Assembly: GCA_025451235.1 (NCBI GenBank)
Contig: JANWKT010000008.1
Coordinates: forward strand, 310,001 to 374,000
Direction: 5' to 3'
DNA length: 64,000 bases
From: Flavobacteriales bacterium
GTDB lineage: Bacteria > Bacteroidota > Bacteroidia > CAIKAF01
Part shown: one piece after another, positions 28,069 to 52,241 of the stretch
How positions within the stretch are numbered: the stretch's first letter is position 1
Layout: each line of letters begins with the position of its first letter
Notes under the pieces: generated by a model
Database searches by the model: none
The model's input: the letters and a program-made list of their open reading frames with translations, nothing else
What the model was told of the DNA's origin: nothing
Made by a program: the position numbers and the translations under genes

Positions 28069-29664
28069 ATGAAAAAAGTTTTTACATTGTCAATTACATG
28101 TATTTTTCTAATGCATATAAATGCTCAATTGAATGTTGATACCCTTGCCATACAAGATTTTGAATTGGTACCAACCACGCCAACCTGGAATTTTACAGGA
28201 CCGGTTATTTATAATAGCAACGGCTTCAGTTCTGCTACTGCTGCTCCACCCAACAGTCCGATAGGCATTGGTGGATCACGTGCATGGGAAACCACTACCA
28301 ATAGCGGAGGGCTTTTGCTGGAGTTTGCCAATACAAGTATACCGGCAGGTTATGATAGTATCCGGGTACATTTTAACCTGGCAGCTATGAATCTTAACGG
28401 CAGCAGTGGAGGTCCTGACAACCTTGATTACGTATTGGTGGCTTATAGTACCGACGGAGGTTCAATTTTCTCGAACCGTTTGAGAATTAGAGGTGCGGTA
28501 AATGATAATTGCTTCTGGGCATACGATGCCACGGGAGTTGCAAAAGTGAATTACCTTCCTGCAACGGAGGCGTTGTTTCAACCTATCAATACAGGATTAG
28601 CAACCACTTTAGGTTTTAGCAATTGTGAAATTGTTTTTCCCGGGACCGTTACCCAAGTCATGCTCAGAATTACGTGCAGGTCAAGTTCATCTACAGATAC
28701 CTGGTTGGTGGATAATGTGTTGATCACGGGTGAAAATGGTTGTTCCGCTTCGACCTCTTCAGTGAATGCTAGCGCATGCAATAGCTATACGGCTCCCAGC
28801 GGAGCGGTGCTTTCCTCTACGGGTTTACATTATGATACCATACCTAATTTTACCGGCTGCGACAGTGTGATCTCTATCAATCTCACCATCAACAATGCTT
28901 CTACCTCTACCATTAATCCTGTAGAATGTGATGCCTACCTTGCTCCCGGTGGTGCAGTATTATCAAGTTCAGGAACTTATTTAGACACCATTCCGAATAG
29001 TAGTGGCTGTGATAGTGTGATCACGATCAACCTCACCATCAACTCAAGTTCTACCAGCACCATCAATCCGGTTGAATGCGGATCCTATTTATCGCCGGCA
29101 GGGAACCTATATACGAATTCGGGAACTTATAACAATGTAATTCCTAACAGTCTTGGGTGTGATAGTATGATCACTATTAATCTTACCATTAATAATGTAA
29201 ATGCCAATGTGAACCAAACCGGCAATGTACTAACGGCAGTATCAGCTACGGGTACTTATCAATGGATCAATTGCACAACATTATTGCCAGTGGCGGGAGA
29301 AACCAACCAGAGTTTTGCGCCTGTTAGTAATGGGAACTATGCCTTGGTGATCACCGATAACGGCTGCACAGATACTTCCAGCTGTTTCACCATTTCCGGA
29401 TTGTCAGTGGACGAAAATGAATTATCAGAAGTGCTGATCTATCCGAATCCTGTAATGGACTATTTTACCATTGATATGGGAATGGACCAGGAAAAAATAT
29501 GGGTAGAGATCATGGATGGAACAGGAAGAGTGGTGAAAGCGAAATGCTTTACCCAAACCAACTCAATTCAAATGAATATCGGTGATGTTAGTCCAGGAGT
29601 CTACCTGATCCGGCTTACCAACGCGAATGGGTTGAAAGTAGTGAAGAGGATGGTGAAAAATTAA
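28069..29664 (+). CDS. Secreted T9SS type A cargo protein with tandem Cys repeats
   Basis: 531 residues. A signal peptide (MKKVFTLSITCIFLMHINAQ) is followed by a beta-rich N-terminal domain of about 200 residues. Three tandem repeats of about 45 residues then carry the pattern ACNSYTAPSGAVLSSTG ... CDSVISINLTIN (about residues 230-385), each with two Cys probably forming a disulfide. A T9SS type A sorting domain ends the protein (VLIYPNPVMDYFTID, ISPGVYLIRLTNANG-like VSPGVYLIRL, KVVKRMVK). Likely surface-attached after cleavage by the T9SS sortase PorU. Convergent with the next cargo gene (9-base gap). Confidence 0.92.
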   Translation: MKKVFTLSITCIFLMHINAQLNVDTLAIQDFELVPTTPTWNFTGPVIYNSNGFSSATAAPPNSPIGIGGSRAWETTTNSGGLLLEFANTSIPAGYDSIRVHFNLAAMNLNGSSGGPDNLDYVLVAYSTDGGSIFSNRLRIRGAVNDNCFWAYDATGVAKVNYLPATEALFQPINTGLATTLGFSNCEIVFPGTVTQVMLRITCRSSSSTDTWLVDNVLITGENGCSASTSSVNASACNSYTAPSGAVLSSTGLHYDTIPNFTGCDSVISINLTINNASTSTINPVECDAYLAPGGAVLSSSGTYLDTIPNSSGCDSVITINLTINSSSTSTINPVECGSYLSPAGNLYTNSGTYNNVIPNSLGCDSMITINLTINNVNANVNQTGNVLTAVSATGTYQWINCTTLLPVAGETNQSFAPVSNGNYALVITDNGCTDTSSCFTISGLSVDENELSEVLIYPNPVMDYFTIDMGMDQEKIWVEIMDGTGRVVKAKCFTQTNSIQMNIGDVSPGVYLIRLTNANGLKVVKRMVKN

Positions 29665-29673
29665 TTCACCTTC

Positions 29674-31188
29674 CTAATCCTTTTTAATAATAGCTTGGGA
29701 GTATACCTGATGAGCTCCGGTTATTCGGATCACATACATTCCATTTTCCAATGATCCGATATTGATCTCCTGGTTAGCTTTGTTCAGGGTTAACGTGATC
29801 ACTGCTTCACCTAAGATGGTAATGATCTCCAATTTCGGATGAGCCGCTGCTATTTCTTCCGGCACCTGAATAATTAACTTACCGGAAGTTGGATTGGGAT
29901 AAATATTTGCCTCAAAAGAATGAGATTCTTCAAAACCATTGGAACATACTTCCACAAAAATACTATCGGTATCCATTCCAATGCAACTGTTGGTATCTGT
30001 ATATGAATAGGTGATCACATTCCAACCCAGGCTTGAACCTGATGGCGTAAATTGATTAGCACTTACTCCAGGACCCGTAAAAGTTCCTCCTAAAGGACTT
30101 TCTCCACTCAATGTAATGGCCAACGCATCGCTACAAACTGAATCTGTGCCTGCTAAACTAAGGGTAACGGTTGTTGGTGGAATATCTAAGATCGTATGAT
30201 CAAAAGTAGTTGTACAACCATTGGTATCCGAAATATCACAATGGTAGCTACCTCCATCTAAGTTGGTAATCGTTGACGTAGTTCCACCAGATAACCAGTT
30301 ATAGGAATATCCAGGCGTTCCACCTCCAACATTGATACTCAAATTTCCGTTACTTGCATTGCAGGTTTCATCCGTGGCAGAATTTAAACTTGCGGCGAGG
30401 GGAGTGGGTTCAGAAATAATCACTGAAACTGTATCGCTGCCGCAGGCATTCGTTACGATACAGGTAAATGTACCTGCCGCAAGGTTAAAGGCAGTATCGT
30501 TGGTCCCCCCATAAGGGAACCATTGATAAGTACAACTCGTATCCGGCCCACCCTGGACCGTAGCCATCCCGGTACTATCGCCATTGCAGTCTGCATCTAA
30601 CTGACCTTGAACAGATGCAACAGGAGCAATACAACATGGAGTCATGGTATGGTTGCCAATATGTGTCATTTCATTTTGAGGATATACATCCCATTCGGTA
30701 GCATTTATTGTCCAATTTGTATTACCCTGTTGGATGGATGCCATTCTTACCAATGTAAACTCACTGGTTGCACCGCTACCTACAGGCCAGTTAGTGCCAG
30801 GATCAACCCCCAACTCACCAATTACATCTAGCAATATCCCATTATGTCTTAAATGCAATACATCATCTCCATTAAAAAATGTGACGGTATGCAAAGTGTC
30901 GGACACTGCCAGAATTGCTGCTACGGCGGAAGGATTGCCCACCACATAAACTCCCCCTGCAGGAATGGTTCCTGATAAAAATAGTGAGTCCTGGTAGACA
31001 GGGCTTCCATTATTCGATCTATATATTATATAACCAGCAAGATTAACGGCAGAAGAAGTGGGATTATATATCTCGAGCGCTTTATTGTTACTGGTCCCTT
31101 CCAGGTATTCGCTAAAAAACAAATCGGTACATTGTGAAAATACGTTTGAAGTAAATCCTAAAAGAATGAGGTAGAATATTTTTTTCAT
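29674..31188 (-). CDS. Secreted T9SS type A cargo with lamin-tail domain
   Basis: 504 residues with a signal peptide (MKKIFYLILLGFTSNVFSQ). The N-terminal lamin-tail (LTD) domain is clear: LFFSEYLEGTSNNKALEIYNP, NLAGYIIYRSNNGS, GTIPAGGVYVVGNPSA (about residues 22-170). Ig-like/SprB-type repeats follow (DADCNGDSTGMATVQGG, CNASNGNLSINVGGGTPGYSYNW). The C-terminal type A domain reads ANIYPNPTSGKLII and LENGMYVIRITG. LTD domains occur in extracellular nucleases and surface proteins; no nuclease motif is seen here. The gene converges on the preceding cargo gene. Confidence 0.92.
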   Translation of the reverse strand: MKKIFYLILLGFTSNVFSQCTDLFFSEYLEGTSNNKALEIYNPTSSAVNLAGYIIYRSNNGSPVYQDSLFLSGTIPAGGVYVVGNPSAVAAILAVSDTLHTVTFFNGDDVLHLRHNGILLDVIGELGVDPGTNWPVGSGATSEFTLVRMASIQQGNTNWTINATEWDVYPQNEMTHIGNHTMTPCCIAPVASVQGQLDADCNGDSTGMATVQGGPDTSCTYQWFPYGGTNDTAFNLAAGTFTCIVTNACGSDTVSVIISEPTPLAASLNSATDETCNASNGNLSINVGGGTPGYSYNWLSGGTTSTITNLDGGSYHCDISDTNGCTTTFDHTILDIPPTTVTLSLAGTDSVCSDALAITLSGESPLGGTFTGPGVSANQFTPSGSSLGWNVITYSYTDTNSCIGMDTDSIFVEVCSNGFEESHSFEANIYPNPTSGKLIIQVPEEIAAAHPKLEIITILGEAVITLTLNKANQEINIGSLENGMYVIRITGAHQVYSQAIIKKD

Positions 31189-35425: not shown

Positions 35426-36898
35426 TCAATTCAGTTCCGCGATCTTTACGATCACTTCCTCACAAATTTTTCGGATCTCTGTATTCTTGCAGGTATAATT
35501 ATTGAACAAGATGGTGAATACAAGATTTTTTCCAGTTTTCGCCTTTACATAACCGGCATAAGACCTAACACGGGTCATAGAGCCGCTTTTGGCGGTTAGA
35601 TTATTTTCCAAAATAGTCCCCTTTCCAAAACTTATCATGGTCCCGCTTTTTCCAGAAACGGGCAGGCTTGATAGAAAATCACTATAATATTTTTCTGACT
35701 GCATTTTTATAAGAAGATCCGTTAATGCTGAGGCAGAGATCGCATTGCTTCTGCTCAATCCGCTTCCATCAACCGGGATCAGTTCATTCGAAGGAATTCC
35801 TTTATTTGCCCAATAGGTTTGTATGAACTCGTTGGCCGAAATATTTGAACCGAAACCATTTTGTGAATAAGCAATGTATTTATGCAATTGTTCGGCATAT
35901 AAATTATTGCTATGTACATTCACCTGTTTGATGATGTTTTTTAATACCGGAGAATAAACCGTAGCTATTTTTGTCCGGCTATCATTAGAGGTATATTTCA
36001 TTTTATTTTCTTTCATGATGCGGGTAGTGGTAGGCAACTTGGTAATGGTAACTGAATTTGCCCTTAAAACACTATCGAGTATATAAGCAGCATACCAGGC
36101 AGGATCCGGAATGGACCCTTTTACTTTGAATTCCTCTTCATTGCCACTTACTGTGCCAACAATGTGGCGATAATAACTATACTCCGAGCCAAAGATGAAC
36201 GAATCATCCCCGCTTTTGCTTACCCCGCTTTTTACATCATTGATCACTGTAATATTAGGTACATAGGGCTGCATCCGGATAAATTTAGTAGGACTGTTCT
36301 CGTTGCCGGATTTGAGATAATAACAAACCATATTATCACAGATGGTAAGCCCTGAAGGACCAGCGCCGTAGTATTGACCAATATCCCCCCAATCCCAGGT
36401 CCCGGGTGCCATAATAGATTCGAATATTTCATCATCCCCAATGACCTGTCCTTCGATCTTTTTTACCCCAAGGGCTTTCACTTTCGCAATGAGTTTACTA
36501 AGGAGGGTATCAACCAAAGTCGAGGAGAACTTTTCTGAACCCAGCGTAGGGTCTCCACCGCCTCTTAAAAAAATATTTCCCTTAAGTGTTCCACTGTTGG
36601 CATCAAAGCTTCCGTCGTATTGAAGATATGTTTTGAATTGAAAATCGGGTCCGAACATGAGCAAAGCGGTGGAGGTGGTCACCAGTTTCTGACAGGAGGC
36701 AGGCGACAGCAGAAGGTCCTCGTTATAGCCGGCTATTTTGGTTCCATCCGAGCTTTTAACGGATATCCCGATCAAAGCAGTTTCTATACCGGTTTTGGAA
36801 GGCAACCCATTTAGATAGGTTTGCAGCCCAGACTGCGCAAATACAGTGGAAATGCTGAAAAAACAAATGCTTAAAATTCTTAAAAATGGAAGCCTCAT
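35426..36898 (-). CDS. dacB: D-alanyl-D-alanine carboxypeptidase/endopeptidase (PBP4)
   Basis: 490 residues with a signal peptide ending near VFAQ. Class C penicillin-binding protein motifs: SxxK as S68-C-Q-K71 (LLSPASCQKLVTTSTALL), SxN in VHSNNLYAEQLHKY, and KSG in LPVSGKSGTM. A large insertion between the first two motifs contains GNIFLRGGGDPTLGSEKF, as in PBP4. The enzyme trims peptidoglycan pentapeptides and cross-links. A loose hairpin lies between it and the convergent M23 gene (35384-35420). Confidence 0.94.
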   Translation of the reverse strand: MRLPFLRILSICFFSISTVFAQSGLQTYLNGLPSKTGIETALIGISVKSSDGTKIAGYNEDLLLSPASCQKLVTTSTALLMFGPDFQFKTYLQYDGSFDANSGTLKGNIFLRGGGDPTLGSEKFSSTLVDTLLSKLIAKVKALGVKKIEGQVIGDDEIFESIMAPGTWDWGDIGQYYGAGPSGLTICDNMVCYYLKSGNENSPTKFIRMQPYVPNITVINDVKSGVSKSGDDSFIFGSEYSYYRHIVGTVSGNEEEFKVKGSIPDPAWYAAYILDSVLRANSVTITKLPTTTRIMKENKMKYTSNDSRTKIATVYSPVLKNIIKQVNVHSNNLYAEQLHKYIAYSQNGFGSNISANEFIQTYWANKGIPSNELIPVDGSGLSRSNAISASALTDLLIKMQSEKYYSDFLSSLPVSGKSGTMISFGKGTILENNLTAKSGSMTRVRSYAGYVKAKTGKNLVFTILFNNYTCKNTEIRKICEEVIVKIAELN

Positions 36899-37005: not shown

Positions 37006-38568
37006 ATGAGAAAACCAATCCTGTTCTTATTATTTTTCATCTTGTTTCAATTCAGTCAGGCCCAAAAACCATTTGTTCTATTAAAAACGTATACCAATCA
37101 TCATGCCCCCATTGAATGCTTGGAGATCTCACCGGATGGAAGAACTGCGGTAACTGCTGACCGGGATGGATATATCATCTTCTGGGATGTGGTAGACAGT
37201 ATGAAAATGCTTTATAAGGTAAAAGGGCATACCGGTGGTATCAATTGCCTATTGTTCAATAAATCCGGAACCAAGTTTGTAACAGCCGGCGATGACTATA
37301 AAGTTAAACTTTGGAACTTTACAACCCGTAAACCCATTAATTCTTATAGCTCGCCCTATAGTTCAGTCAACTTTGCCGTATTAGCCCCGGATGAAAGAAG
37401 CATTTATTTTGGAGGATATAGTAAATCATCCAGCAATTCCTTTATCAAGACCAATGAATTTACAGGTTTGTACCAAGTGAATGTAGACGGTAAATCGGAC
37501 CCATTGTTATTGTATAACGATGCAACAGAGAGTTCAGACTATAGTACCAATACCTGGGGGATTACAGATGGCAACCTGGATGCTTCCAGGAAGTATGTGG
37601 CATATACCAAGGGCTACTATGTATATTTTTGGGATATCAATGCCAATAAAATGGGATTTAGAAAATCATCCGAAACCAATTTGAATAACCTTTCGTGTAC
37701 TAAGAACTATATTTATTTATGGGGCGATGGATATATATCTAAAATGAACGTGAAAGACAATTATTCAATTACCACTACCATTGCGGGTGCCAATGATCCT
37801 ATCAATTCAGGCTACAGCAAATTTGCATTTTCAAAATCCGGCAAGTATATGATCACTGGGGATGATGACCGGCGTGTAAATGTTTGGAACACTTCCACCT
37901 TATCGAAAACCCAGGTCCTATTGGGCCATTCGGATGTGGTAAGAGCATTTGCGTTTGGAGACAGTGATAGCATCATTGTTACCGCCGGATATGATGGTAC
38001 GATCAAGATATGGGGATATCAGGAGATAAAAGACCGGTTAGACAGGCAGGACAATATTCCAAAAGATACGATTGTTGAAATACGGGATACCGTAGTGGTG
38101 GTAGAGGATACTATGAAATTTGTATTCGTAAAGGATAGTGTGGAAATCAAACCCGATACAGCTCATACTATACCCGTGGTTCATGACGTTATATTTACCG
38201 AGAACAATATTCCTGTAACCATTAAAGATCGAGAAGTAATACTACAAAGCACGGTAACCGTGGACCAGCCTGAATTTGATATTGAGGTTTGGGACCAGTC
38301 CCTGGTGGATGGAGATAGCATTTCATTGAATTTGAATGGAGATTGGATATTGGAGGAGTATATGGTGGTGAAAGAAAAACGAAAGATCCATATCGTAATA
38401 GACCCGAGTGCCAGTAACAATTATTTGATCCTGTTTGCCCATAACCTGGGGAAATTTTCGCCGAATACAGCAGCCGTGCAGGTATTGATCGGGGATAAAA
38501 AGTATAGATTGGAGTTGAGTTCTGATCTGAAGAAATCCGGAGCATTGAATTTTATATATAAACCATAA
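37006..38568 (+). CDS. Secreted WD40 protein with the cluster's C-terminal module (paralogue 1)
   Basis: 520 residues. Signal peptide MRKPILFLLFFILFQFSQAQ. Residues about 25-335 form a WD40 propeller (HHAPIECLEISPDGRTAVTADRDG; HTGGINCLLF; HSDVVRAFAFGDSDSIIVTAG; YDGTIKIWGY). A Thr/Asp/Val-rich linker (about 340-393) leads to a C-terminal module at residues 395-520: VIFTENNIPVTIKDREV, WDQSLVDGDSISLNLNGDWIL, NNYLILFAHNLGKFSPNTAA, SSDLKKSGALNFIY. The module recurs in the next four genes. It is beta-rich and may be an anchoring or protein-binding unit; no function is known to me. First gene of a plus-strand cluster. Confidence 0.88.
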   Translation: MRKPILFLLFFILFQFSQAQKPFVLLKTYTNHHAPIECLEISPDGRTAVTADRDGYIIFWDVVDSMKMLYKVKGHTGGINCLLFNKSGTKFVTAGDDYKVKLWNFTTRKPINSYSSPYSSVNFAVLAPDERSIYFGGYSKSSSNSFIKTNEFTGLYQVNVDGKSDPLLLYNDATESSDYSTNTWGITDGNLDASRKYVAYTKGYYVYFWDINANKMGFRKSSETNLNNLSCTKNYIYLWGDGYISKMNVKDNYSITTTIAGANDPINSGYSKFAFSKSGKYMITGDDDRRVNVWNTSTLSKTQVLLGHSDVVRAFAFGDSDSIIVTAGYDGTIKIWGYQEIKDRLDRQDNIPKDTIVEIRDTVVVVEDTMKFVFVKDSVEIKPDTAHTIPVVHDVIFTENNIPVTIKDREVILQSTVTVDQPEFDIEVWDQSLVDGDSISLNLNGDWILEEYMVVKEKRKIHIVIDPSASNNYLILFAHNLGKFSPNTAAVQVLIGDKKYRLELSSDLKKSGALNFIYKP

Positions 38569-38610
38569 CCTGCTTTACTAACCCACAACTAATCTATAAT
38601 CCAACAACAC

Positions 38611-40047
38611 ATGTATATCATAAAAAAAATTTCCGTTATACTTTTATTAGCCATTGGCTTATATGCCCCTGTATATAGCCAGGATTATATTCTGCTTGAA
38701 ACCAAAACAGACCATAATTCTCCCATTGAATCATTGGTATTGGCTCCTGACGGGATGACCATGATCAGTGGCCATCATGACGGATACCTGGTTTGCTGGG
38801 ATATGAAAACGCATAAGATCATCAGCGAAACCCATCCACATGGTGGGCAGATCAATTCAATTATTTTTGATAGATCCGGGAAAAAGCTGATCACTTCAAG
38901 CGATGATAGCAAAGTTTGTGTGATCGAGTATCCATCTATGAAAGTGCTCAAGACATATCCGGTACCTACCAATTCCAACAGCTTTGCCTGTATTACTTCG
39001 GAGGGGGTTCTTTATTTTGGAGGATCAAATACCAACCGGACTTATGATGCGGAAACATTTATGTATGCCCAGCCCTATGGTGCCCTCTACAGAATTAATA
39101 CCAAGATGGGCGACAAGGCGGAGATCGCTTATAACGATGAAAGACCTATGGAATCAGGATCTAATATTACGGATGGGAATATGGATTATTCTGGTAAGTA
39201 TATTATTTATACCAAAAACAGGTTCCTTTCTTTTTATGATATTGCGAACAAGAGATTGGAGTACCGAATGGAACTTCCTAACTCATTGAATAATTTTACA
39301 TCTACCAAAGATGCATTGTATGTTTGGGGTGATGCCCACTTAATGAAATTGACCAGCAATGGAAGCAGGTATAGTTTAGTTAAAACTGTATTGGCCGGGA
39401 CCCGGCCCTCCTATATCGGCTTCAGTAAACTGGTGCTATCCAATAACGAAAAGATGTTGGTAACCGGAGATGATGGTAACAATGTGAACATTTGGACCAC
39501 CGATCTGGAAAGAAAACAGGTTTTGACGGGTCATACAGATGCTGTACGAAATTTTTTATTCTGGAACAACGATTCAATTCTTGTGACCGGGGGATATGAC
39601 GGCAAGCTCCTTTTCTGGGGATTTGAGCAACCACCGAAAGATACTACACCGGTAATTGTTGATGTAATTTTTACCGAAAACAATATTCCAGTAAAAATTA
39701 AAGACAGGGATGTGGAATTGCAAAGTACCATCACAGTGAATCAACCTGAATTCGATATAGAAGTATGGGATCAATCGATGGCCGATGGGGATAGCATTTC
39801 ATTGAATATTAATGGGGAATGGATCTTGCAGGAATACGAGGTGATCAAAGAGAAATTGAGATTGCATGTAAAGATCAATCCGAATGCATCCAATAATTAT
39901 TTGATCCTGTATGCGCATAACCTGGGGAAATTTTCTCCCAATACCGCAGCTGTGCAAGTATTGATTGGGGAGAAAAAATACCGGTTACAATTGAGCTCCA
40001 GTTTATCAAAATCCGGAGCATTGAATTTTTCTTATGTACCTGAATAG
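38611..40047 (+). CDS. Secreted WD40 protein with the cluster's C-terminal module (paralogue 2)
   Basis: 478 residues. Signal peptide MYIIKKISVILLLAIGLYAP, ending near YSQ. The WD40 propeller (about 25-335: HNSPIESLVLAPDGMTMISG; HGGQINSIIFDRSGKKLITS; HTDAVRNFLFWNNDSILVTG; YDGKLLFWGF) is clearly related to paralogue 1 throughout. The linker is short. The C-terminal module at 352-478 is nearly identical in its core (WDQSMADGDSISLNINGEWIL, NNYLILYAHNLGKFSPNTAA). Lies 42 bases after paralogue 1; co-transcription is likely. Confidence 0.88.
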   Translation: MYIIKKISVILLLAIGLYAPVYSQDYILLETKTDHNSPIESLVLAPDGMTMISGHHDGYLVCWDMKTHKIISETHPHGGQINSIIFDRSGKKLITSSDDSKVCVIEYPSMKVLKTYPVPTNSNSFACITSEGVLYFGGSNTNRTYDAETFMYAQPYGALYRINTKMGDKAEIAYNDERPMESGSNITDGNMDYSGKYIIYTKNRFLSFYDIANKRLEYRMELPNSLNNFTSTKDALYVWGDAHLMKLTSNGSRYSLVKTVLAGTRPSYIGFSKLVLSNNEKMLVTGDDGNNVNIWTTDLERKQVLTGHTDAVRNFLFWNNDSILVTGGYDGKLLFWGFEQPPKDTTPVIVDVIFTENNIPVKIKDRDVELQSTITVNQPEFDIEVWDQSMADGDSISLNINGEWILQEYEVIKEKLRLHVKINPNASNNYLILYAHNLGKFSPNTAAVQVLIGEKKYRLQLSSSLSKSGALNFSYVPE

Positions 40048-40049
40048 AA

Positions 40050-41210
40050 ATGAATATTAACAAAGCATTTATTGCTTTTTTACTTTTTCTGATTTTTTTC
40101 CAATCATTCTCTTTTGCACAAAAAATTGAATGCGATCATATCTATTGGGTAAACAATTCTGAGATTTTCGAGTATGATCCTTTGATGGAAATATCCAAAT
40201 ATACCGGTTTCAATAGCCCTCCGGGCGCAAGCGGGATAGCCATAGCACCCAATATTAACGGAGGTGGCAAAGAACTCACTTTTTACTGTGTAGTGAATGA
40301 AAGGATCAATTATTATGATGGGAAAACATGGATCAACACCGGACATTTGAGTGGATCGGTAAACCTGGCGGGTGGTGGTAATTATATCTACATTCTGGAT
40401 GGTATCAATTCGAAATTATTCAGATATGATGGAAAAGAAAATGCCAAAGAACTTTTAAAATTTAATTCATTTGCGGGCCCGTTCGACCTGGTGGCAGATA
40501 GTAAAGGAAATTTCTATCTCATTTTCACCAAAATGAACAAAATGGTGCAGTATGATCCAGAGGGAAAAGTATTGAAGCAATATAGACTGGAAGGGTTAAG
40601 CGGACAGACTTCGGGTGGTGGATTTGCTTATAGGGACAATGTGATCTATGGAAATTTTACCAGTGGTTCTATGATCGGGGTTTTTAAAGGAGGAGTGATC
40701 AGGTTCACGCCTACCGGACTTATACCGAATTCAGTGGATGATTTTGCCTCTTGCCCCCTTGAGATGTATGAACCGGAGAAAAAACCCGATACAGTTAAGA
40801 TCGATACGGCTGAAGTGATCAAAGATGTGGTATTTACGGATGGAAATATTCCCTTAAGCATTAAGGACCGCGAAGTAAAACTTCAGAGCAGTATTACCGT
40901 GCATGAACCCGAATTTGAAATAGAAATATGGGATATATCTATGCCCGATGGCGACAGCATTTCTTTGAACCTGAATGGAAAATGGATCCTGGAGAATTAC
41001 GAGGTGGTGAAGGCCAAGTTAAAGATGAAGGTGAGTATCCATGCGGATAGCCCCAATAATTACCTGATCCTGTTCGCCCATAACCTGGGTAAGATCTCCC
41101 CCAATACGGCTGCGGTATCGGTATTGATCAATGGCCAACAGCATAAACTCAGCCTTACCTCTGATTTAAAGTCATCCGGAGCACTTAATTTTATATATGA
41201 ACCCGAATAG
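40050..41210 (+). CDS. Secreted NHL/SMP-30-like propeller protein with the C-terminal module (paralogue 3)
   Basis: 386 residues. Signal peptide MNINKAFIAFLLFLIFFQSF, cut near FAQ. Residues about 25-250 form a propeller of a different type from the WD40 pair (YDPLMEISKYTGFNSPPGAS; NLAGGGNYIYILDGINSKLFRYDG; DLVADSKGNFYLIFTKMNKMVQYDPEGKV), followed by a Ser-Cys-Pro motif (DDFASCPLEMYEP). The C-terminal module (260-386) has VVFTDGNIPLSIKDREVKLQ, WDISMPDGDSISLNLNGKWIL and AHNLGKISPNTAA. Separated from paralogue 2 by 2 bases; overlaps paralogue 4's longest frame by 14 bases. Confidence 0.88.
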   Translation: MNINKAFIAFLLFLIFFQSFSFAQKIECDHIYWVNNSEIFEYDPLMEISKYTGFNSPPGASGIAIAPNINGGGKELTFYCVVNERINYYDGKTWINTGHLSGSVNLAGGGNYIYILDGINSKLFRYDGKENAKELLKFNSFAGPFDLVADSKGNFYLIFTKMNKMVQYDPEGKVLKQYRLEGLSGQTSGGGFAYRDNVIYGNFTSGSMIGVFKGGVIRFTPTGLIPNSVDDFASCPLEMYEPEKKPDTVKIDTAEVIKDVVFTDGNIPLSIKDREVKLQSSITVHEPEFEIEIWDISMPDGDSISLNLNGKWILENYEVVKAKLKMKVSIHADSPNNYLILFAHNLGKISPNTAAVSVLINGQQHKLSLTSDLKSSGALNFIYEPE

Positions 41211-41229
41211 TATTCATATCTTTGTAAAA

Positions 41230-42384
41230 ATGAAATCAATGTATAGATCAGCCCTGTTCGCTTTCCTTTTATTTCTTCCGATAGGAGCCTTGTCCGCTCA
41301 GTCGATCAATTGTGATCATATTTATTGGTTAGAAGCAGGAAGTATTATTGTGGACTTTGATCCTTCCACCCAAACCTATTCACATTATTCCCTTGTAACA
41401 CCACCCAACTCATCAGGTCTTGCCATTGCTCCAGACTTTAAAAGAAAAAACACGCTGACCTTCTATACCACCGTAGCCAATTACATGTATTATTACGATG
41501 GTTCCCAATGGGTAAATACCAATCATAATGTAACCACGGTAAACATTGCAGGCGGAGGGGACTATATGTATATATTGGATGGAGTGAACTCGAAGGTTTA
41601 TAAATATACCAGGAAAGGGGACGCCACCTTATTGCTGGATCTGGGTGGAGTGAACGGTAACTTTGCTGGTCCTTATGACGTGGTTTGTGACAACAAGGGA
41701 AATTTTTACCTCATGCATGTGAGAAGAAAAAAACTGATCCAATATGATCCTACGGGAAAAGTGATCAAAGAGTATGAATTGGCTGGGCTGAGCGATCAAC
41801 CCTCTGGTGGAGGGTTTGCATATAGGAATGGGGTTATTTATGCCAATGTTTCCGGGGCATCTGTTATAGGTGAAATGAGGAACGGAGTGATCGTTTTTAC
41901 GAGAACCACCGCCTTGCCTCAAAATATGAACGATTTTGCTTCCTGCCCCTTGGATGTTTTTGTTCCTAAGGAAAAAGATACGGTGATTGTTGACAAGGAT
42001 GTGATCTTTACGGATGGAAATATCCCATTAACGATCAAAGAGCGAAATGTTGTATTACAAAGCACCATTACAGTCAATACGCCTGAATTTGAAATCCAGA
42101 TATGGGACCAATCTATGCCAGATGGTGATAGCATTTCCCTCAACCTGAATGGAAAATGGATCTTAGAAAATTATGAAGTTGTAAAGGAGAAACTAAAGCT
42201 GAAAGTTAAAATAAGTCCCAGTAACCCCAATAACTATTTAATTCTGTATGCCTTGAATTTGGGTAAATTCTCACCCAACACAGCCGCTGTTGCTGTAATT
42301 ATCGATGGAAAGGAACAGAGGCTTACCTTGAAGTCGGATATGAAAACATCCGGGGCATTGAACTTTACCTACGTCCCGGAATAA
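41230..42384 (+). CDS. Secreted NHL/SMP-30-like propeller protein with the C-terminal module (paralogue 4)
   Basis: 384 residues from the ATG at 41230, which gives a standard signal peptide (MKSMYRSALFAFLLFLPIGA, cut near SAQ); an earlier in-frame ATG at 41197 lies in the paralogue 3 coding end. The propeller resembles paralogue 3 (NIAGGGDYMYILDGVNSKVYKY; DVVCDNKGNFYLMHVRRKKLIQYDPTGKV; DDFASCPL-like NDFASCPLDVF). The C-terminal module has WDQSMPDGDSISLNLNGKWIL and ALNLGKFSPNTAA; here the conserved His of AHNLGK is Leu (ALNLGK). 3 bases before paralogue 5. Confidence 0.88.
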   Translation: MKSMYRSALFAFLLFLPIGALSAQSINCDHIYWLEAGSIIVDFDPSTQTYSHYSLVTPPNSSGLAIAPDFKRKNTLTFYTTVANYMYYYDGSQWVNTNHNVTTVNIAGGGDYMYILDGVNSKVYKYTRKGDATLLLDLGGVNGNFAGPYDVVCDNKGNFYLMHVRRKKLIQYDPTGKVIKEYELAGLSDQPSGGGFAYRNGVIYANVSGASVIGEMRNGVIVFTRTTALPQNMNDFASCPLDVFVPKEKDTVIVDKDVIFTDGNIPLTIKERNVVLQSTITVNTPEFEIQIWDQSMPDGDSISLNLNGKWILENYEVVKEKLKLKVKISPSNPNNYLILYALNLGKFSPNTAAVAVIIDGKEQRLTLKSDMKTSGALNFTYVPE

Positions 42385-42387
42385 GAT

Positions 42388-43515
42388 ATGAATAGATCTG
42401 TGAATAAATTAATCGGATGTATGATGCTAATAGTAGGTTTGGCATCACAACTAGTTTTTTCACAATCGATCAATCCGCAATATGTATATTGGTTAAATAA
42501 TGAAATTATTTATGAATTGGATCCCGTGACCAATAAGTCCCATGAATTTTCATTAAAAATGCCGATGGGCTCTACAGGATTAACCATAGCATCCAATCCA
42601 CGAATGCCTGAAACTTTGACCTTTTATACTACGGTGATGAGCCTTATTTACTATTATGATGGGAAAAAATGGGTGAGTACTAACCACTTTTCCTATGTTA
42701 ATTTAGGTGGCGGTAAAAAGTATGTATACATATTGGATGGTGTTGGTTCAAAAGTATACAGATATGATGGCAATGAAGAAATCCAATTGGTCTTATCGTT
42801 GGATCCAAATTTTTGCGGTCCATATGACATAGTAGCGGACACCCAAGATCATTTTTATTTACTGCACAACAAACTAAAAAAACTGGTGGAATATGATCCT
42901 GGTGGAAAGGTGATCAGGGAAATTCCCCTTACCGGATTAAAAGATGAAGTCTCCGGCGGTGGTTTTGCCATGGTAAATGGATATGTGTATGCGAATGTTT
43001 CAGGCAGGAGCGTGGTTGGACAATTGAAAGACGGAGTGATTGAATTTTCGGATGCCAGTTATTTACCCAGCAGCCTGAATGATTTTGCCACTGTTCCCTA
43101 TAAGCACGATTTGATGGTAAGCAACCCTTCCACAAATGCACCTTCGAATTCCAATATACGCATACCTTTAAATTTGAGACCTGTTGAATTACAGCATACC
43201 ATTTCCGTAGACCAAAATAAACTTAGACTTAGTGTTTGGCTTCCTTCAACAGATCATAGGAGCAGGGTATCATTTATCTTTAATGGAGTGAAAATATTGG
43301 ATAATACCCTCCTCTCAGATACCAAAGTGGAATTTGATTTGACTGTATCTTCCCAGGGTGATAACCATTTATCGATGGAATTAATGAATGAGAATAAAGG
43401 AATAGCTATTGCCGCCAATGTTTCGGTGATGGTAAATGGGCAAGAACAACTGGTGAGTTTAACCTCCGATTATAAAAAATCAGGAGCCATTAATTTGGTG
43501 TTACATTCCAGATAG
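42388..43515 (+). CDS. Secreted NHL/SMP-30-like propeller protein with degenerate C-terminal module (paralogue 5)
   Basis: 375 residues. Signal peptide MNRSVNKLIGCMMLIVGLAS, cut near FSQ. The propeller aligns with paralogues 3 and 4 (NLGGGKKYVYILDGVGSKVYRYDG; DIVADTQDHFYLLHNKLKKLVEYDPGGKV; LNDFATVPYKHD, where the Ser-Cys-Pro motif is lost). The C-terminal part (257-375) keeps the start (RPVELQHTISVDQ) and end (LVSLTSDYKKSGAINLVL) but has lost GDxISLxLNGxWIL and the LGKxSPNTAA core, so it is a diverged version of the module. Last of the five tandem paralogues. Confidence 0.88.
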   Translation: MNRSVNKLIGCMMLIVGLASQLVFSQSINPQYVYWLNNEIIYELDPVTNKSHEFSLKMPMGSTGLTIASNPRMPETLTFYTTVMSLIYYYDGKKWVSTNHFSYVNLGGGKKYVYILDGVGSKVYRYDGNEEIQLVLSLDPNFCGPYDIVADTQDHFYLLHNKLKKLVEYDPGGKVIREIPLTGLKDEVSGGGFAMVNGYVYANVSGRSVVGQLKDGVIEFSDASYLPSSLNDFATVPYKHDLMVSNPSTNAPSNSNIRIPLNLRPVELQHTISVDQNKLRLSVWLPSTDHRSRVSFIFNGVKILDNTLLSDTKVEFDLTVSSQGDNHLSMELMNENKGIAIAANVSVMVNGQEQLVSLTSDYKKSGAINLVLHSR

Positions 43516-43548: not shown

Positions 43549-44589
43549 ATGATCATCTCCCTTAAATATTTATTGCTGAAATACTTTGCCGGTATCACAG
43601 CCTTGGTGGTGACCGCCAATTATGATCTCGTGGATTATGGTATGAGAATGGGGCAGGGGCAGCTCAAAATATTGATGGGTAGCAAAAAGATCGAGCGCTA
43701 TCTGGAGGATCCCCACTATCCGGATTCACTCAAACAAAAAATATTACTGATCCAGGAGATCAAAAAATTTACGGTGGATGAATTGGGTTTTCAGCCTTCA
43801 CCCAACTATAAAAAACTATATGATCAAAAAGGAAAACCCATGATGTATGTGGTAACGGGTTCCGAGAAATATGCGCTGAAACCTATGAAATGGAAATTCC
43901 CTATCGTAGGTGAGGTAACCTATAAAGGATTTTTTACGAAGGAGGAAGCCAATGAGGAAGCAGCCAGGATTGAAAAACTCGGTTATGAATCAAGGATAAG
44001 GATCGTAAATGCATGGAGTACCCTGGGTTGGTTCAGGGATCCTATTATGAGCAGTATGCTGGAGGAGTCGCCCGGAGATATTGCGGAGGTGATCATTCAT
44101 GAATTATCGCACGGAACTATTTTTATTAAGAACAATGTGGATCTGAGTGAAAACCTGGCCAACTTTATTGGAGATAAAGGTGCTCATCTTTTTTTGCAAT
44201 ATAAATATGGGATCAGTTCTCCTGAGTATAAAGAGTATATTGAATCAGCCAGTGATTATGAAAAGTTCTCGATGCACTTTATTCAAAGTGCAAAAATGAT
44301 GGATAGTTTGTACGCTACCCCTGGGTTCATTCAGGCGGATACCATTCAAAAAAAAGCCTTGAAGCAACAATATATTGAAATGGTGGTGGCTGGAATCGAT
44401 ACCATTACCTTTTTTGATCCTCTACGTTTTAAAAATAAATTCAAGGAAAAGCTACCCAACAATGCTACTTTTATCGTATTCAGACAATACAACAGCATGC
44501 AGGATGTATTCGAAGCGGAGTTCCAGAAGGAGGGTAAAGGGGATTTAAAAAAATACATAGACTTTTTGATCAGAAAGTACAATAAGTAG
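43549..44589 (+). CDS. Predicted zinc aminopeptidase (COG4324/PF10023-type)
   Basis: 346 residues. An N-terminal hydrophobic segment (KYLLLKYFAGITALVVTANY) is followed by YGMRMGQGQLKILMGSKKIE, the characteristic start of this family. The zinc motif HELSH is at residues 184-188 (IIHELSHGTIFIK); the third ligand is probably the Glu in LSENLANFIGDKGAHLFL. The family is annotated as predicted aminopeptidase, and its substrate is unknown. Because it follows the five paralogues after 33 bases in the same direction, it may process or act with them, but a separate promoter is possible. Its 3' end adjoins the second nested palindromic repeat. Confidence 0.82.
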   Translation: MIISLKYLLLKYFAGITALVVTANYDLVDYGMRMGQGQLKILMGSKKIERYLEDPHYPDSLKQKILLIQEIKKFTVDELGFQPSPNYKKLYDQKGKPMMYVVTGSEKYALKPMKWKFPIVGEVTYKGFFTKEEANEEAARIEKLGYESRIRIVNAWSTLGWFRDPIMSSMLEESPGDIAEVIIHELSHGTIFIKNNVDLSENLANFIGDKGAHLFLQYKYGISSPEYKEYIESASDYEKFSMHFIQSAKMMDSLYATPGFIQADTIQKKALKQQYIEMVVAGIDTITFFDPLRFKNKFKEKLPNNATFIVFRQYNSMQDVFEAEFQKEGKGDLKKYIDFLIRKYNK

Positions 44590-48626: not shown

Positions 48627-51590
48627 TTATTTTTGAATGGGTAAGGTGATCTCCGTTTGGGTACCTTGTTGTGGTTTGGTCCTGATCTGGAGATTGCCAT
48701 TGAGCGATTTTATCCTTTCTTTAATCGTCGAAAGTCCAAGAGAGTTGAGTTTCTCCTGATCTAAATGAAAGCCTTTACCATTGTCCTGAATAAGGATACG
48801 TATTTCTTTTGGCTTGAGCTGAAAACTAACCTTGGCATTTTTAGCTTCACTATGCTTGATAATATTGTTGATACATTCCTGTACCATTCTAAAGATCATG
48901 AGTTGGCTTTTGGTGTCGAAATAACCGTCGATGTTTTCTAATTCGTGTACCCAATAAATGGTGCTATGTTGCTGGGTTTCCTCGAGTAGCATTTCAACCG
49001 CTTTTGTAAGCCCTAGTTTTTCAAAATAATGAGGGTGTATGTTTCTGGAAAGAAGGCGGATATCTTCAATGATCTTGTTCACTTTCTTTTCGATGATCTC
49101 GTTCTTTTGTTTTTCAGCACTTACCTTCAGCATCGACAATTCTTGCCCAACTCCATCATGCAATTCTCTGGCGATCCTTTTTCTTTCTTCTTCCTGTGAC
49201 TCAAGAATGGCTTGTGTAAGCTTTTCTTGCCGCTCCTTGGCTTTGCGAAGACTCCTGATCCTCCATAAAAATATTAAATAGATACAACCGGCAAGTGCAA
49301 AGGTCATCAATACCCTGAACCAGGTTTGCTGATACCAGGGGGGCTGAATGCTGAAACTAAATGAATAGGGTTCTTTGTTCCAGATACCATCGTTGTTGCA
49401 CGACATGAGCTGAAAGGTATACTTACCAGCCGAAAGATTGTTATAAGTAATATGCCGGTCCTGGAATGGATTGCTCCAGTTTTCCTGCAATCCTAAAAGA
49501 CGGGTTCTATAAAATACTTTTTCATGCCCTTTATGTGTTACTGCCAGGTATTCGAAGGTGATCTCATTCTTGTTGTAAGGAAGTTGGAGGTTTACAGGCA
49601 ATTCATCGAAATCGTCGTAGCCCGTGCAAAATTTGCTGAAATCAATTACTTCATCCTTGATCCTGATCTGGTTGATATGGTTGATCGTTTCGGTAAGGTT
49701 CTTTTTGTTTTTAGTTATCTGATACCGCTGTGCTCCATAAAGGCCGCAGATCCATAAGGCATTCGAATGATCAATGTACAATTCAGAAAAATAAGCTGTT
49801 TCAGGATTTAACCCTTCTGATTGGTCGATTTTATCAATCAACATGGGTTTGCCGGCATATATGCTGTTCAGTTCAACAATGTATACATCAGTAAAGGATC
49901 TGAGAACAAAAAAATCATCCTTGCAATAAATATTATACGGACCTTCTATATTGAATAGATCTTTGAGATTGTACTTTTTATAATTATCAGGACCTTGTAC
50001 GTTGGTCTTGAACTGAAGGATTTCATTCTCCCCGATATCGGCCCAGACCGATTGATATTTATCGGAGCAAATAACCTTTAATTCTATCTTCCCATCAATA
50101 TCCTCCTTCAAGCCTGGGATATCAATAATTTGGCCTCCTGATATTTTTTTTAAGCCTGCACCGGTGGCCAGATAAATACCATTATCTGTAGTTGTTCCTT
50201 TCCTTACCAACAGCCCATGTTCCACCTGGTTATTTTTGCTGTAATAGTAAGGAGTGATTTTTTCATCTTTTATCCTGGTCACTCCATCCATGGAGGTAAT
50301 ATAGACGGAGGTATCAAAAGCACTAAAAAAAACATTTATAACAGATGAAGAAGAGAATTGAGACAAATTGGTAAAGGTGGTAGTTTTTTTGTCCTCCACC
50401 TTGACCACATTTTCATGTCCAACATACCAAACCGTATTATTTACAGGATCATAAGCATTTAACCCTGGAGAATCCGTAGATGGAATGGTATCTCTGATAA
50501 GAACTCCATTCTTACCATATTGAAGGCTTGAAAAGTAATTTACTCCAAAATAGCCAAACCAATAGGTGCCTTTTTCATCCTGCACAACTCCATAAACGGG
50601 ATCAATATCTTTGTTATGGTCGGAAAACCGATGATAGTATACATTTTTGATTTCATACGCACCACTACCGTTACCGCCGAGCCAGATGTTTTCTTCCGAA
50701 TCGAGAAATCCGAAATAAAAAGAATTGGTGGATAGATGATTATTAGCTGCGGAAATTTTGTGGATGATCTCCTTACCATCAAATATATTTATGCCCAGAA
50801 ATCCCAATAACCAGATATTTTGATCCGGATCCATAAAAGTTTGCATGATAGGTCCTAATGAAAGACCTTCGACCAAACCAATGGTTGTACCCTTGCTGAA
50901 TACCGAAACGGCATTTTCATGGCCGAACAATAACTTTTCACCCACCTTGTTAACCGAGAATACCGTATTGCTCAATAATCCATTCTGATTGGTGATAGCT
51001 GAAAATTCTCTGGTTTTGGTATTGAAAACGATTACTCCGCTATCCCTGGATCCAATATAAATGGATTCGTTGTGCAGAATAGCTGCGTACTTTTTATTGT
51101 ATTCTGCGTTTGCAGGAATAAGGGTTTTATAAATAATTTTCTCATCTCTTATCTGGTATAGATTGTTTTCGGAAAAGCACCAGACATTGTCATTGTCGAA
51201 TAGAATCTTCTTGGCTTTTTTAATTTCATTAAAGAAAACAAATCGTTTGGTTATTTTGTTCTTGTTGTAACAAACAAATAAACAGGTGTCTTCCGATCCG
51301 ACCCAAAGCCCATTGTTTTTACCCTTTTCCAGGTCATAAATCACCCCACTTCCCATGGGCCATCCCTTGTCTTTGGTGCATCGCTTAATTTCCAATCCAT
51401 CATATATAGCCAGTTCATCACTCCCAGCCATCCAAAGATATCCCTGCTCATCCTGCAAAATATCATAGATGGCTCCTGATATAAGCCCCTGTTCCCAGGA
51501 AATATTATTGAACATGAACTCCTGGCTATGTAAAAGACCAGTTGCTGTGGTAAGAAGTAGGATCCCTATTTTTTTTACCAGGCTTTGCAT
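48627..51590 (-). CDS. Two-component sensor histidine kinase with regulator-propeller sensor
   Basis: 987 residues. A signal peptide (MQSLVKKIGILLLTTATGLL) is followed by periplasmic two-component-regulator propeller repeats (DILQDEQGYLWMAGSDELAIYDG; FMDPDQNIWLLGFLGINIFDG; FLDSEENIWLGGNGSGAYEI) forming two propellers (about 25-650) and a Y_Y_Y-type Ig domain (about 690-760, YNNLSAGKYTFQLMSCNNDGIWNK). One transmembrane segment (about 770-790) precedes a HisKA_3 domain with His811 in RELHDGVG, and a HATPase domain (QDNGKGF; LGLSTIKERIKSLNG). It partners the response regulator upstream (stop 51591, start 51590). Ligands are unknown; similar proteins sense glycans or envelope signals. Confidence 0.92.
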   Translation of the reverse strand: MQSLVKKIGILLLTTATGLLHSQEFMFNNISWEQGLISGAIYDILQDEQGYLWMAGSDELAIYDGLEIKRCTKDKGWPMGSGVIYDLEKGKNNGLWVGSEDTCLFVCYNKNKITKRFVFFNEIKKAKKILFDNDNVWCFSENNLYQIRDEKIIYKTLIPANAEYNKKYAAILHNESIYIGSRDSGVIVFNTKTREFSAITNQNGLLSNTVFSVNKVGEKLLFGHENAVSVFSKGTTIGLVEGLSLGPIMQTFMDPDQNIWLLGFLGINIFDGKEIIHKISAANNHLSTNSFYFGFLDSEENIWLGGNGSGAYEIKNVYYHRFSDHNKDIDPVYGVVQDEKGTYWFGYFGVNYFSSLQYGKNGVLIRDTIPSTDSPGLNAYDPVNNTVWYVGHENVVKVEDKKTTTFTNLSQFSSSSVINVFFSAFDTSVYITSMDGVTRIKDEKITPYYYSKNNQVEHGLLVRKGTTTDNGIYLATGAGLKKISGGQIIDIPGLKEDIDGKIELKVICSDKYQSVWADIGENEILQFKTNVQGPDNYKKYNLKDLFNIEGPYNIYCKDDFFVLRSFTDVYIVELNSIYAGKPMLIDKIDQSEGLNPETAYFSELYIDHSNALWICGLYGAQRYQITKNKKNLTETINHINQIRIKDEVIDFSKFCTGYDDFDELPVNLQLPYNKNEITFEYLAVTHKGHEKVFYRTRLLGLQENWSNPFQDRHITYNNLSAGKYTFQLMSCNNDGIWNKEPYSFSFSIQPPWYQQTWFRVLMTFALAGCIYLIFLWRIRSLRKAKERQEKLTQAILESQEEERKRIARELHDGVGQELSMLKVSAEKQKNEIIEKKVNKIIEDIRLLSRNIHPHYFEKLGLTKAVEMLLEETQQHSTIYWVHELENIDGYFDTKSQLMIFRMVQECINNIIKHSEAKNAKVSFQLKPKEIRILIQDNGKGFHLDQEKLNSLGLSTIKERIKSLNGNLQIRTKPQQGTQTEITLPIQK

Positions 51591-52241
51591 TTAGAATATA
51601 CCCTTGTTCTCCAATAAAAACTTCATAAGGGCATTTTTCCCTCCTTCTAATCCCAGTTTTTTTACACAATTACCCCGATGTGTTTCAATGGTCTTTTCTG
51701 AAACAAACAAAATTTCGGCAATCTCCTTGGTGGTTTTTCCTTCACTCACCAACTTGAGTACGTTGAGCTCGGAAAGGGTAAGTTCATATTTTCTGGACCA
51801 GTCTGTTGACAGTTGCTTGGCTTCTCTTTTCTCGAGGAACTGGTGAAGGGTCGGACTTACATAGGTACCCCCTTTTTGTACAGCATATATACATTCCACC
51901 AGATCATTCAATACCGCATCTTTTAAGAGATATCCCCTTACCCCAATATTCATGGCCTCATTGTAAAACCCTTCTTCCCGATGCATGGTGAGGATCACGA
52001 AGCGGGTGTAAACATTTTTTGAAATGGCTTTCTTACAAACATCCAAGCCATTCATCATGGGCATATCAATGTCTACAATGGCCAGATCAGGTTCAAGTTT
52101 ACATATTTGCTCGTATGCTTCAAGTCCGTCTTTGGCTTCCCCTATACATTGAATATTGTTTTGTTCCTGGATGATTTCGATCAGTCCTTTTCTTACAATT
52201 GGATGATCATCGGCGATAAAAATTTTTATGATTCTTTCCAT
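51591..52241 (-). CDS. NarL/LuxR-family response regulator
   Basis: 216 residues. The receiver domain has DDHPIVRKGLIEII, with the phosphorylated Asp57 in LAIVDIDMPMMNG and the conserved Thr/Lys (LTMH, LLKDAV). The C-terminal LuxR HTH is clear: LTLSELNVLKLVSEGKTTKEIAEILFVSEKTIETHRGN (read in short motifs LTLSELNVLKLVSEGKT and KEIAEILFVSEKTIETH). It is the first gene of the operon with the histidine kinase at 48627-51590, with stop and start abutting. Its targets are unknown; no obvious palindromic site lies in the short upstream region. Confidence 0.94.
   Translation of the reverse strand: MERIIKIFIADDHPIVRKGLIEIIQEQNNIQCIGEAKDGLEAYEQICKLEPDLAIVDIDMPMMNGLDVCKKAISKNVYTRFVILTMHREEGFYNEAMNIGVRGYLLKDAVLNDLVECIYAVQKGGTYVSPTLHQFLEKREAKQLSTDWSRKYELTLSELNVLKLVSEGKTTKEIAEILFVSEKTIETHRGNCVKKLGLEGGKNALMKFLLENKGIF

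Follow-up and report, generated by a model that had tools for sequence, protein, structure and literature searches.

A C-terminal module shared by WD40 and NHL-like propeller proteins of a Flavobacteriales operon, and its possible role in envelope targeting in the Bacteroidia

Several T9SS CTD families are already known (PMC10202324). The type A CTD, which PorZ carries behind its propellers, is a C-terminal Ig-like beta-sandwich of seven strands and about 75 residues that is found in the Bacteroidota on many exported heads, including propellers, of proteins with Sec signal peptides. The type B CTD also takes the C-terminal place on exported Bacteroidota proteins. An adjacent cognate PorP/SprF gene is common for type B CTDs, without being universal. 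Another layout is that of PorE (PG1058), which consists of TPR, a WD40-type propeller, a CRD and a C-terminal OmpA_C domain and is a known case of peptidoglycan binding by the C-terminal end of a propeller protein (PMC5053529, PMC7192894), the propeller being held in the periplasm by the envelope-binding domain at its end. Here we describe, in a stretch of 64,000 nucleotides of Flavobacteriales DNA (the window), five propeller proteins that share another C-terminal module. We give it about an even chance that this module represents a new envelope-targeting class in the Bacteroidia; it would then be a fourth T9SS sorting signal or else a peptidoglycan or outer-membrane docking domain with a metal site, and would present the interchangeable propellers of the operon to one fixed receptor.

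Five genes with two kinds of propeller

A first-pass annotation of the sequence had proposed five tandem, co-directional genes for secreted proteins, and this arrangement was confirmed: the five reading frames lie on the plus strand, separated by 42, 2, 19 and 3 bp, and all encode a hydrophobic signal peptide with A/S then Q at the cleavage point predicted by eye, a pattern named the Bacteroidetes Q-rule (PMC5837995). A putative aminopeptidase gene follows gene 5 after 33 bp. Since promoter and terminator scans of the operon gave no excess over shuffled expectation, it is the spacing that carries the operon claim. The genes are as follows (L numbers denote loci from other genomes).

35426..36898, minus strand: D-Ala-D-Ala carboxypeptidase (S13/PBP4 type; PF02113, E 2e-78), divergent from gene 1; same pairing with a WD40+module gene in L064 and L067 of the same family
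37006..38568, plus strand: gene 1, signal peptide (37006-37062, Q next), WD40 propeller, linker and C-terminal module; ORF of 520 aa, PF00400 E 8e-32 in four stretches
38611..40047, plus strand: gene 2, signal peptide, WD40 propeller and C-terminal module; PF00400 E 7e-19
40050..41210, plus strand: gene 3, signal peptide, NHL/SMP-30-like propeller and C-terminal module; 57% identity to gene 4 over the full length, SGL E 0.045
41230..42384, plus strand: gene 4, signal peptide, NHL/SMP-30-like propeller and C-terminal module; SGL E 7e-4, Foldseek matches to regucalcin, virginiamycin B lyase and NHL domains; start taken as 41230, the mechanical ORF beginning at 41197
42388..43515, plus strand: gene 5, signal peptide, NHL-like propeller and degenerate C-terminal module; identity to genes 3 and 4 of 41-48% in the head and 27-31% in the tail
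43549..44589, plus strand: putative aminopeptidase (PF10023, E 7e-67), probably gene 6 of the operon; same gene about 30 bp after the module genes in L065 of the same genus

The WD40 heads read in genes 1 and 2 were borne out, as both score above the curated cut-off of PF00400 (108.7 and 67.8 bits compared to 27). The NHL/SMP-30-like heads read in genes 3 to 5, which are mutually related over their full length (36-57% identity), stood in part. The NHL domain of mammalian TRIM71 matches gene 4 by sequence (E 2e-4), and a structural model, made for gene 4 only and of low confidence (pLDDT 64), retrieves NHL, SMP-30 and regucalcin propellers with Foldseek (E ~1e-6 to 1e-5), but against the SGL sequence model of Pfam the three proteins remain below threshold (at most 19.8 bits, cut-off 26.3). 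A two-component regulator propeller histidine kinase (Y_Y_Y, HisKA_3) is encoded elsewhere in the window (48627-52241, minus strand), beside a LuxR-type response regulator.

A tail that forms a family of its own

The module measures about 115-125 residues, and its copies and the two loops discussed below are located as follows.

38194..38565, plus strand: module of gene 1; 79% aa identity to the gene 2 tail and 68-69% to those of genes 3 and 4, HMM E 5e-47
39670..40044, plus strand: module of gene 2, the copy modelled
39769..39792, plus strand: gene 2 module, loop between strands 2 and 3, D34-x4-D39-G-D41; D34, D39 and D41 each in 78 of 79 sequences
39919..39945, plus strand: gene 2 module, loop between strands 6 and 7, N84-x-G86-x3-P90-N91-T92; conserved at 97-99%
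40833..41207, plus strand: module of gene 3; 65-74% aa identity to the tails of genes 1, 2 and 4
42007..42381, plus strand: module of gene 4; 69-74% aa identity to the tails of genes 1 to 3
43141..43512, plus strand: degenerate module of gene 5; D34, D39, D41, G86, P90, N91 and T92 all lost

Genes 1 to 4 thus share tails of 65-79% identity across head types that do not align with each other; between genes 1 and 3, for example, the tails match at 65% over 143 aa (E 3e-59) and the heads give no comparable match. The claim that all five genes end in a related module holds as far as homology is concerned, the gene 5 tail being recognizable from that of gene 1 (E 4e-13; 27-31% identity range to the other tails), but the core by which the module had been defined is absent from gene 5, in which GDSISLNLNG is replaced by RSRVSFIFNG and SPNTAA by AIAAN. 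A match of the Pfam family GbpA_D3 to the tail of gene 5 (E 2e-4 when the tail is taken by itself) lies below the cut-off, occurs in one of 25 members and was set aside as chance.

Searches of the own genome retrieve exactly five copies of the module, all within this operon. Sequence and profile searches with the module in Pfam, NCBIfam and PDB yielded no significant match, and no paper was found by a literature search with motif strings such as IPPNTA and DGDSISL. Profile searches detect it in 13 of 60 relatives. In a phylum sample, 55 of 395 genomes carry it, all 55 from the class of the window, and in a class sample 110 of 395 do. A scan of GTDB contigs with the pattern NLGx[IFY][PSH]PNT[AV] gave at least 568 confirmed module loci. 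The 80 loci retained from these are labelled Bacteroidota, bar record L067, which was deposited as Competibacteraceae and of which the WD40+module protein and the PBP4 neighbour match the window's own family. Most module-carrying genomes possess one copy. The heads include WD40, NHL, two-component-type and PQQ-type propellers, L-type lectins, CBM_4_9, amidase_3, an M16 peptidase, outer-membrane barrels and lipoproteins, next to further uncharacterised heads seen by eye. At most 6 residues follow the module in 87 of 92 copies from the loci and the window, and never more than 22; L021 carries two modules and a long tail. The earlier statement that similar tails occur elsewhere in the Bacteroidota is thereby substantiated, and the profile search that had been suggested found independent conservation and matched no known sorting domain: the tail is an independent, widespread domain family of the Bacteroidia, unnamed in the searched libraries. 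In one well-sampled family of the class (L052-L061), short secreted proteins of 190-250 aa consist only of a low-complexity region and a divergent module.

Between genes 1 and 2, non-synonymous divergence (dN) is 0.14 for the tails and 0.63 for the heads; the corresponding values are 0.18 and 0.46 between genes 3 and 4, and 0.13 and 0.58 between gene 2 and its counterpart in L065. In the fourth head-matched comparison, of gene 4 with L065, the two values lie closer together (0.16 and 0.24). The order is reversed for gene 5 compared to genes 3 and 4 (tail 0.72, head 0.53-0.59). Expressed as dN without a ratio, with synonymous sites saturated in most pairs, the tails mostly evolve 2.5-4.5 times slower than their own heads. 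In L065, the WD40 gene is accompanied in the same operon by a glycine-rich gene, a third head type on the same tail, and the two tails agree at 95% in protein sequence and at 85% in DNA. These figures, together with the saturated synonymous sites in the window, led us to reject recent gene conversion of the tails and make constraint the better explanation of their likeness.

AlphaFold2 predicts the gene 2 module with confidence as a nine-strand beta-sandwich (pLDDT 90.6, pTM 0.84). The structure prediction proposed in the first-pass annotation thus delivered a fold, but no significant relative, as Foldseek returned nothing from PDB at E 0.001 or better. The VIA-align neighbours (a lipoxygenase PLAT domain, the alpha-toxin C-terminal domain, Tyro3 and SoxY; best Z 5.4) were treated as common sandwich arrangements. 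Two loops of the model stand out in conservation. N84 is kept in 78 of 79 module sequences; positions 84-92 fell within the pattern used for the contig scan, so that their invariance is partly selected, whereas D34, D39 and D41 lie outside it. Joint loss of D34, D39, D41, G86, P90, N91 and T92 occurs in gene 5 alone, and that these seven residues are lost together there and kept nearly everywhere else is as expected of a single site. Judged by residue type, the two loops possibly form one metal or ligand site, which may bind Ca2+. The Ca2+-binding PLAT/C2 and CalX-beta sandwiches share with the module a weak fold resemblance and acidic residues in inter-strand loops, but Z is only about 5 and there is no sequence match.

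These resemblances bear on the proposal that the module is an extracellular or surface domain for glycan binding or adhesion, CBM- or C2/PLAT-like, of which the heads are further binding domains. The fusions to L-type lectins, CBM_4_9 and propellers, the PLAT/C2-like structural neighbours and the Ca2+-binding type of the loop residues would all suit such a role, but a Z of about 5 is in the range of common arrangements, amidases and barrels carry the module as well, these proteins lack a type A or B CTD for export, and the tail is strongly conserved relative to the head. We therefore consider this proposal improbable.

Comparison with T9SS sorting signals

The first reading that the module is not a canonical T9SS type A or B domain was upheld by negative results in profile and profile-profile comparisons of which the positive controls worked. 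The type A models TIGR04183 and PF18962 match neither the five proteins nor 79 modules, but do match at least 150 places in the own genome, several of them within the window; the type B models TIGR04131 and PF13585 are likewise silent on the five proteins and 79 modules, with 38 places for the type B model in the own genome. With hhalign, the module reaches a probability of 0.4% against the own-genome type A profile and of 0.3% against the type B profile. Compared to the seven strands and about 75 residues of a type A CTD, the module has nine predicted strands over about 115 residues, and it lacks both the YPNP and the late GxY that mark the type A CTDs of its own genome. It also differs from type B CTDs in its heads, which are not SprB-like adhesins, and in its neighbourhood, as no PorP/SprF gene adjoins the five genes, which are flanked by the PBP4 and aminopeptidase genes. 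No NCBIfam match of the type C (ChiA type) kind was obtained at E 0.1, in a library that presumably contains the type C model. Window proteins that served as positive controls are four with a type A CTD and one with a type B CTD and Calx-beta and PKD domains (28069-29664 plus, 29674-31188 minus, 53115-55025 minus, 55094-57133 minus and 7280-9478 plus strand). At some 23 kb from the operon, the window further encodes a homologue of the T9SS component PorZ (11657-13957, plus strand; E 2e-25 to the N-terminal propeller family PF21544).

The module might still be a further class of T9SS sorting signal besides A, B and C, sending the propeller proteins across the outer membrane. Its strict C-terminal position on varied heads fits this idea, as does the existence of several CTD families (PMC10202324). 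SprA is present in 134 of 135 module-positive genomes, namely all 55 from the phylum sample and 79 of another 80, the exception being an 85% complete assembly; within the class, it occurs in 55/55 module-positive compared to 37/43 module-negative genomes (Fisher p 0.006, uncorrected for kinship). Almost all genomes sampled from the class (92 of 98) possess T9SS, and the test ignores phylogeny; we rejected this co-occurrence as proof of T9SS cargo. Moreover, profile similarity to type A or B CTDs is lacking, the module of L021 is internal and doubled, and the fusions to barrels, lipoproteins and an envelope amidase are unlikely T9SS cargo. Taken together, a sorting signal seems to us rather unlikely, though less so than a surface adhesion domain.

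Envelope partners and a possible docking role

Some of the fusions have company that points to the cell envelope. In one family, the module follows an outer-membrane barrel, an assignment that consists of one Pfam match (PF13505, above cut-off in L062) and the BLAST homology of L063, L068, L124 and L135 to it and to each other. A lipoprotein gene that also ends in the module lies directly downstream in all five loci (pairs at L062 4891-7226, L063 924-2926, L068 5140-7108, L124 5212-7150 and L135 5125-7126). By established OMP topology, a C-terminal extension of an outer-membrane barrel is expected on the periplasmic side. The sequences after the lipobox of the five lipoproteins (CTGKKT, CQKKEM, CTQRKV, CQSKKV and CTKKDS) fit none of the surface-export motifs K-(D/E)2, SDDDD and SDDFE described for lipoproteins of this phylum (PMC5080379). 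In L121 (2192-7430), Pfam places an amidase_3+module gene next to the LptD and MlaD genes, and L127, L129 and L137 have a similar layout; the amidase match of the own genome (a 409-aa frame) is without the module. The WD40+module gene is divergent from the S13 carboxypeptidase (PBP4) in the window, L064 and L067. Apart from the amidase-mlaD loci and the barrel-lipoprotein pairs, gene order near module genes is not obviously conserved.

The presence of the module on barrels, on lipoproteins that lack a surface-export motif and on an amidase encoded next to lptD and mlaD speaks for docking in the envelope and against a sorting signal for secretion. We therefore tentatively favour, at slightly less than an even chance, a Bacteroidia-specific, periplasm-facing docking or retention domain of the envelope with a metal or ligand site. 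The periplasmic side, the metal site and the partner are all inferred, and the docking reading, the best supported of those considered, is built on the company the module keeps. In its favour are also the strict C-terminal place on unrelated heads, the tail dN of 0.13-0.18 against head values of 0.46-0.63 in three of four comparisons, and the divergent PBP4; the periplasm is indicated by the barrel family, the downstream lipoproteins, the amidase_3 gene by lptD/mlaD and the M16 peptidase+module fusion. Against it, adhesin-like heads, among them L-type lectin and CBM_4_9, would be just as well placed on the cell surface, the C-terminal position and the SprA distribution also fit a secretion signal, and the structural neighbours of the module are weak.

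Under the docking reading, the signal peptide would lead to Sec export of the module protein, the D-x4-DGD and N-x-G-x3-PNT loops would form one site, possibly for Ca2+, this site would bind a conserved envelope partner, be it peptidoglycan, an outer-membrane component or another module, and the variable N-terminal head would carry out the particular function of each protein. Four of the plugs in this operon would then be functional and present a single partner with two WD40 and two NHL propellers; the gene 5 tail would be a fifth plug that lost its site. The closest parallel is PorE, with a similar layout, but PorE has an OmpA_C tail, TPR, a CRD and a lipoprotein signal, all absent from genes 1 to 5, which have signal peptides of the signal peptidase I type instead, and the Pfam model of the OmpA_C peptidoglycan-binding family does not match the module. 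As a rival to this reading, the modules could bind each other, so that co-encoded module proteins assemble together. Such sets do recur (five genes here, three in L065, barrel and lipoprotein pairs in five loci), but most module genomes hold a single copy, which would leave no partner unless the module homo-oligomerizes; of the explanations weighed, we give this one the lowest probability.

With at least 568 loci ending in this domain, which is unnamed in the searched libraries, the proteins concerned are annotated, if at all, by their heads only. As a sorting signal, the module would lengthen the list of T9SS cargo in many environmental Bacteroidota. As a docking plug, it would single out propellers, an amidase, barrels and lectins as envelope proteins with a common receptor, and the discovery of that receptor would explain all of them together.
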